Shown: positions 28,005 through 28,434 of the stretch, in pieces | Layout: every line of letters starts with the position of its first letter | How positions within the stretch are numbered: the first letter of the stretch is position 1 | Source: Olivibacter sp. SDN3 | GTDB lineage: Bacteria > Bacteroidota > Bacteroidia > Sphingobacteriales > Sphingobacteriaceae | Reading direction: 5' to 3' | Length of the DNA: 64,000 nt | Assembly: GCF_014334135.1 (NCBI RefSeq) | Contig: NZ_CP060497.1 | Location: 1,488,001-1,552,000, forward strand | Notes under the pieces: generated by a model | What the model was told of the DNA's origin: nothing | Database searches by the model: none | What the model saw: the letters and a program-made list of their open reading frames with translations, nothing else | Program-made: the position numbers and the translations under genes

Positions 28005-28364
28005 ATGGAAATTAAAGGCAAGGTACACGAAGTTGGTGCGGTACAGCAAGTTACAGATTCTTTTAAAAAACGAGATCTAATAGTACAATATGCTGAAAAC
28101 CCGCAATTTGTTGAGTATATTAGATTTGAGGCAACGCAAGATAGAGTTAATATTTTTGATAATCTTGCTCCAGGCGAGGATGTAGAGGTTTCTTTTAATT
28201 TAAGGGGACGACCTTGGACAAATAAAGAGGGTGTAACTACCTATTTTAATTCGTTGGTGGCTTGGCGAGTAACGAAGGCTGCTTCGGATACTGGAGTGAC
28301 CCCACCTGTGGCCCCTCCTGTTGATATCTCTTCTGCGCCAGATGATGATGACCTCCCCTTTTAG
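28005..28364 (+). CDS. DUF3127 domain-containing OB-fold-like protein with SSB-like C-terminal tip
   Basis: 119 residues. The body matches DUF3127: MEIKGKVHEVGAVQQVTDSF, KRDLIVQYAENPQFVEYIRF and VEVSFNLRGRPWTNKEG. A short Pro/Ala/Val linker (about residues 97-108) is followed by an acidic end, SSAPDDDDLPF. That C-terminal tip closely resembles the DDDIPF/DDDLPF tail of single-strand DNA-binding protein, which recruits DNA repair enzymes. The body and linker layout also look SSB-like. The function of the family is unknown; a nucleic-acid role is an inference. A hairpin at 28373-28434 follows. Confidence 0.9.
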   Translation: MEIKGKVHEVGAVQQVTDSFKKRDLIVQYAENPQFVEYIRFEATQDRVNIFDNLAPGEDVEVSFNLRGRPWTNKEGVTTYFNSLVAWRVTKAASDTGVTPPVAPPVDISSAPDDDDLPF

Positions 28365-28372
28365 TATATCGA

Positions 28373-28434
28373 GAGATCTACTTAAGCAGCAGTAAAAACG
28401 TATTGAAAAGACCGCTTCTGCTTAGGTAGATCTC
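28373..28434 (+). terminator. Long hairpin downstream of DUF3127
   Basis: A 17-bp inverted repeat (28373-28389 and 28418-28434) with one G-U pair and a 28-nt loop. There is no T-run after it, so termination is not certain; it may instead stabilise the mRNA end. Confidence 0.55.

Follow-up and report, generated by a model that had tools for sequence, protein, structure and literature searches.

A DUF3127 protein of Olivibacter sp. SDN3 as a probable auxiliary SSB with a conserved acidic tip

The DUF3127 protein of Olivibacter sp. SDN3 is probably an auxiliary, divergent and compact single-strand DNA-binding protein (SSB), which would coat ssDNA and dock the partners of the SSB tip. In the window (the whole stretch of 64,000 nucleotides that was analysed), its gene occupies 28005–28364 on the plus strand as an open frame from ATG to TAG, encoding 119 aa plus stop, and belongs to PF11325 and PHROG 4932. 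The product is composed of a body predicted to form an OB fold with the strand order E-E-E-H-E-E (residues 1–91; 28005–28277, plus strand), a variable Pro-rich linker of low model confidence and low residue conservation (residues 92–112; 28278–28340, plus strand), and an SSB-like acidic C-terminal tip, DDDDLPF, which is conserved across relatives (residues 113–119; 28341–28361, plus strand). The C-terminal sequence of the protein reads ...VAPPVDISSAPDDDDLPF.

The match to PF11325 (DUF3127) covers residues 2–89 (84.4 bits against a gathering score of 27, E 6.7e-24), and the Pro-rich linker and the tip therefore lie outside the domain. By comparison, PHROG 4932, named 'single strand DNA binding protein', aligns with the entire protein (residues 1–119 on profile positions 1–117 of 117, E 1.5e-27), and a partial match to phrog_44, which carries the same name in PHROGs, was also obtained (E 1.4e-6). 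The score against the PF00436 SSB domain is below the gathering score (12.2 bits against 26, E 0.2), so that the protein is not classed as a PF00436 member, and NCBIfam gave no useful match (E 0.14). Among the best 80 of 260 relatives, the closest named ones are three from Olivibacter (87–88%), followed by Sphingobacterium. Just downstream of the gene lies an inverted repeat (28373–28392 and 28415–28434) with 20-nt arms that are 90% complementary and 22 nt apart; it is present as a single copy in the genome and is perhaps a terminator.

Conservation of the acidic C-terminal tip

The sequence-only reading had likened the DDDDLPF end to the tip of SSB, and the likeness holds up well: the canonical SSB of the same genome ends in DENKDDDLPF, and a tip of this kind, defined as a [x]PF end with at least two acidic residues among the seven preceding the last three, was found in all 175 distinct relatives of the main set (164 chromosomal and 11 viral), a count in which the protein-pattern scans may favour conserved tails, as the six peptides used in them include one close to the tail. 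In the Pfam-only subset, for which the domain stops before the linker and tail, the tip is present in 97 of 97 distinct proteins. As a control, 1047 distinct tails were taken from further ORFs in the same loci, these being mechanical ORFs of at least 150 aa rather than all genes, and just 3 of them fit the definition. The main set comprised the window and 194 loci, 193 of the 195 sources passing E < 1e-20 and the other two, L002 and L003, being canonical SSB loci that were left out.

Wider viral scans gave the tip in 114 of 128 distinct viral proteins. Of the 14 failures, half lack the PF end (variants PFS, PFN, PY, QF and LF), and the other seven have PF but fewer acidic residues; L226, in the latter group, is a start-site fragment. 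Taking chromosomal and viral proteins together, 285 of all 292 distinct proteins end in PF, so that the tip proposed for the window protein is indeed kept across other DUF3127 members. Across these 292 proteins, the most frequent residue of a column accounts on average for 0.54 of the sequences in the body and 0.31 in the linker, as compared with 0.75 over the final seven positions and 0.94 over the final three. The last two residues are constant in the 164 chromosomal genes despite synonymous codon variation: the penultimate Pro is encoded by CCT in 56 genes, CCA in 55, CCG in 39 and CCC in 14, and the final Phe by TTC in 100 and TTT in 64.

The main-set loci are biased toward better-scoring carriers, and the 22 weakest-matching genomes of the phylum were hence read separately. 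The tip was found in 17 of the 21 readable genes; the DUF3127 gene of G257 runs off its contig. The four tipless genes belong to the four genomes of a single family outside the class, f12 (4 of 4), which is the exception among the chromosomal copies read: its DUF3127 proteins (L388, L390, L393 and L394, from G006, G011, G016 and G001) have an acidic end, VDDE, VDDD or EDEA, and no PF. The DUF3127 tip is thus very widely, but not universally, kept. By comparison, such a tip is present in 27 of 32 fetched SSB-domain proteins.

Two single genomes deserve mention. In G077, a mutation or an assembly error has split the DUF3127 gene into two pieces in different frames (L402 and L404), and the second piece carries the tip. 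In G099, from the same family, the best PF00436 SSB (L365) ends in PDDQAY and has no PF tip.

Predicted fold of the body and its sequence relation to SSB

An AlphaFold2 model was built from 54 sequences (only the window protein and the proteins of related loci) and has a mean pLDDT of 85.7. Block-of-ten means are 91–96 over residues 1–90, and the linker and tail blocks from residue 91 on have values of 63, 57 and 56. The elements of the model, E2–10, E21–32, E35–44, H45–51, E59–72 and E78–91, follow the OB order with a two-residue turn between beta2 and beta3, bearing out the small beta-rich body that had been read from the sequence. A Foldseek search against the PDB returned 161 matches at E ≤ 0.001, and the 50 listed among them are all SSBs (best E 5.5e-7). 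In VIA-align 2, the best match, with Z 12.0, is the Salinibacter ruber SSB (91 residues aligned at an rmsd of 2.6), and the top rows in BFVD include DUF3127 and named SSB proteins from phages. The body is predicted to be an OB fold of the SSB type, as the sequence-only reading had led us to look for.

PriB chains came next in VIA-align 2 (Z 11.2–11.3), within 1 Z of the SSBs and so tied with them by the program's own rule; the fold alone therefore cannot tell SSB from PriB. We nevertheless consider it unlikely that the protein is a PriB-like primosome protein bearing an SSB tip, whose body would aid PriA at stalled forks and whose tip would tether it to restart enzymes, with no coating of long ssDNA. 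Besides the tied Z scores, such a protein would fit the short body, as in PriB, and an Olivibacter genome that has PriA and gave no match to PriB_gamma (TIGR04418), although this missing PriB is weak evidence because TIGR04418 is narrow (a single one of the 14 control genomes scores above its cut-off). It would also fit the description of an artificial PriB–SSBc chimera that surpasses PriB in both ssDNA binding and stimulation of PriA (PMC8509808). However, PriB itself is described in that paper as being without the SSB C-terminal domain, whereas the DUF3127 tail is present and conserved; the Foldseek matches listed are all SSBs; and phage DUF3127 genes adjoin exonuclease and annealing genes, with no PF00436 match in 38 of 40 larger viral DUF3127 records, which may be fragments. 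The remaining two records hold one clear SSB and one sub-threshold PF00436 match.

At the level of sequence, SSBs make up 22 of the 24 PDB sequences that a body-plus-tail profile of 33 diverse members matched at E ≤ 1; the best is the D. radiodurans SSB (1se8, E 1.6e-7). A body-only profile (A3, 26 members) did not reach any SSB of the PDB at E ≤ 1, the only match being ceruloplasmin (E 0.68–0.73), and strong sequence homology of the body is therefore not claimed. A phmmer search of the PDB with the single protein gave no SSB either; its match to serine hydroxymethyltransferase (two entries, E 0.47) was taken as chance. When the body-only profile was compared by hhalign with 32 SSB-domain proteins of the phylum, the score was 26.4 (E 2.7e-4, at a probability of only 41%) over 43 columns from the latter half of the body, as compared with at most 16.3 for 60 column shuffles and 9.2 for a reversed copy. 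PF00436 was reached at E ≤ 0.1 by just two of the 33 diverse DUF3127 members. The body is of SSB type by predicted fold and, judged by these profiles, is apparently related to SSB by sequence but far diverged from it.

Over the 292 proteins, Arg69 and an aromatic residue or His at position 71 are near invariant, and aromatic residues at positions 35, 71, 81 and 87 are retained. Trp71 aligns with the SSB Trp of the beta4–beta5 motif LRxRxW and may be the counterpart of E. coli Trp88. The residues described as stacking with bases in E. coli SSB are Trp40, Trp54, Phe60 and Trp88 (PMC3991886), and just one of the four has a clear aromatic counterpart by sequence. The alignment also separates two subtypes, a QDK type, to which the window protein belongs, and a WGD type, which is without five columns of the beta4–beta5 hairpin, as are a few QDK-type rows. 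Read by eye, the WGD type seems to resemble the SSB strand-3 segment around Phe60. One genome (G290) carries two DUF3127 genes of differing subtype, one WGD and one QDK (L166 and L167), and the QDK-type copy may be of phage origin.

These residues bear on a further alternative, one we hold to be quite improbable, in which the protein is a tip mimic or regulator: its OB body would no longer bind DNA, and its tip would compete for the partners of SSB, damping the SSB hub. Such a role would suit a tip that is at least as constant as in SSB-domain proteins (164 of 164 chromosomal relatives and 17 of 21 weakest matches, against 27 of 32), as well as the T44 of the QDK type, which appears to fall at the SSB Phe60 position in the by-eye alignment. 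Retention of Arg69 and of the four aromatic positions argues against it. Furthermore, the body persists in family f12, where the PF tip is absent, which is unexpected for a mimic, and the gene is kept in phage ssDNA-handling modules that mostly have no PF00436 SSB, which would be odd for a pure competitor.

Distribution, coexistence with canonical SSB and gene context

DUF3127 is present in all 61 genomes of the same family, nearly always in one copy, and in 171 of the 296 genomes of the phylum sample. It was found in 72 of the 73 same-class genomes listed and in 99 of 223 from other classes, class counts that assume that 105 further genomes with no match follow the listing order. For the one same-class exception (G292), neither the domain search nor the A1 alignment profile found the gene, so that DUF3127 is not indispensable everywhere. 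Among 14 control genomes, it occurs in Bacteroides ihuae only. A separate scan, with the L172 protein as query, yielded no relatives.

The Olivibacter sp. SDN3 genome (6.12 Mb in one contig) carries one DUF3127 gene and two PF00436 genes, and hence three SSB-type genes, two tipped and one tipless. The second PF00436 SSB (L003, C1:5999674–5999976) is without an acidic tail and ends in KTTLSE. SSB was searched for in 40 chosen genomes, 38 of them with DUF3127, and a PF00436 SSB was found in 37 of these 38 carriers and in both remaining genomes; the sole carrier with no PF00436 match (G024) is a 210-contig assembly. DUF3127 thus accompanies SSB and does not replace it. The A1 profile also gave matches in 11 of 23 genomes mostly without DUF3127, and in nine of the 11 the match is weak (E 1e-4 to 3e-3). 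These were rejected as DUF3127 and read instead as canonical SSBs, a reading position-checked only for the second match of G257, a genome that also has a DUF3127 piece.

The chromosomal DUF3127 gene looks solitary. With three genes read on each side of 50 chromosomal loci, no neighbour cluster was found in more than 10 of the 50, and recurrence is mainly within related loci; with no broadly conserved neighbour, operon or neighbour logic was rejected as a clue to the pathway. Within the class, family f4 (L184–L190) has a recurrent gene upstream of DUF3127 and another downstream, which we would name flavin-reductase-like and Aat-like, respectively, on our own reading of their sequences.

In viruses, 1106 neighbours from 149 loci fall into 564 clusters, and ten representatives, picked by eye from the 45 largest clusters as likely DNA-metabolism genes, were searched against PHROGs; ten representatives, seven of them shared with the PHROGs set, were searched against Pfam. 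In PHROGs, nine of the ten match DNA-metabolism families (replication initiation, four exonuclease types including a RecE-like one, primase/helicase, RecT-like, helicase and one Sak4-like), and the tenth has no match. The Sak4-like cluster resembles Sak4 only weakly (E 1.7e-5), its best family being one of unknown function. Of eight counted clusters, at least one lies within four genes in 73 of the 149 viral loci and none in 76, the former being a lower bound since the helicase cluster was left out, and this share of DNA-metabolism neighbours is not an unbiased estimate because the clusters were picked by eye. Phage P12024L has Erf, YqaJ exonuclease, DUF3127 and primase, and tooticki6-1 has an endonuclease, DUF3127, primase/helicase and NinG; dUTPase and NinG accompany the gene in Gundel_1, and Erf in phage 11b. 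RefSeq names the DUF3127 protein of all four phages 'single strand DNA binding protein', and the GenBank twins of these records often have 'hypothetical protein'. Bacteroidota phages appear to use the DUF3127 protein as the SSB of a recombination/replication module.

On a FastTree tree of the 292 proteins, the chromosome/virus label changes 21 times, as compared with a shuffled mean of 96.2, indicating that the gene seems to have been exchanged between hosts and phages, but not freely. These label changes and the common phage homologues could suggest a relic of a phage or other mobile element with no host role, but this is very improbable, given that the gene is in all same-family and nearly all listed same-class genomes and nearly always single, that related chromosomal loci share some of their flanking genes, and that the tip is under purifying selection.

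Proposed function and comparison with known systems

Bacterial genome maintenance is usually described with SSB at its hub. In the function that we favour, an auxiliary SSB, the OB-fold body of the DUF3127 protein (residues 1–91) would bind ssDNA, probably as an oligomer, and the flexible linker would present the DDDDLPF tip. The tip would dock into the canonical SSB-tip pockets on genome-maintenance enzymes (RecO, PriA and others); we infer this docking because the motif is near-identical to that of SSB and the partner genes are present, both RecO and PriA being encoded in the Olivibacter genome. For the tip of E. coli SSB, docking of RecG has been described (PMC10164576), and for phage HK620 SSB, the last six residues are reported to be needed for Sak4 binding to SSB-covered ssDNA (PMC5928155). 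Working beside, not instead of, canonical SSB, the DUF3127 protein would most likely serve recombination, repair or restart intermediates, recruiting annealing or restart enzymes; in doing so it may compete with or join the SSB interaction network, as the sequence-only reading had suggested.

More specifically, although this is a tentative picture and somewhat less likely than not, the class may possess a near class-wide two-SSB system, in which the DUF3127 protein has its own DNA-binding mode, an intact tip for the shared hub and a dedicated recruiting role in a single pathway (RecO/Sak4-type annealing or PriA restart), and has repeatedly been traded with phages. If this is true, a second tip-bearing ssDNA-binding protein would alter our reading of repair, restart and phage recombination in Bacteroidota of the gut and the environment, and a domain of unknown function becomes a directly testable biochemical hypothesis.

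The family had been taken as uncharacterised, which is not wholly right. A link between DUF3127 and SSB is already known for phages from PHROGs, RefSeq and one phage paper, in which gp25 of Pantoea phage AAS23 is described as carrying both SSB-type and DUF3127 domains (PMC8004638). By comparison, no paper on the chromosomal DUF3127 protein was found in the literature searched, which largely lacks subscription journals. DUF3127 as a class-wide chromosomal SSB-type paralogue appears to be new.

Our comparison with known systems reveals that the DUF3127 protein shares with canonical SSB (PF00436) an OB-fold body, as predicted, a flexible linker and an acidic tip ending in (L/I)PF. The differences occur in the body, which is about 91 residues long in DUF3127 as compared with the 105–110 described for SSB (PMC3991886), has a two-residue beta2–beta3 turn in the model and misses the PF00436 cut-off, and in the gene, which is separate and resides in genomes that also keep canonical SSB. 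The phage DUF3127 proteins (PHROG 4932) belong to the same Pfam family and mostly have the tip; while several of their genes lie in recombination/replication modules, the window gene is solitary and chromosomal. SsbB of Streptococcus pneumoniae and Bacillus subtilis is likewise described as an auxiliary second SSB beside the housekeeping SSB, expressed during competence (PMC3128108), whereas the DUF3127 body is of a different Pfam family. PriB has in common with DUF3127 a short OB fold of the SSB type, going by the predicted model, but differs, as described, in being without the SSB C-terminal domain (PMC8509808). Finally, the SSB of the E. coli phage HK620 resembles the DUF3127 protein, going by its description, in being a distant SSB with an acidic tip, NDYPPF, encoded beside an annealase gene (PMC5928155).
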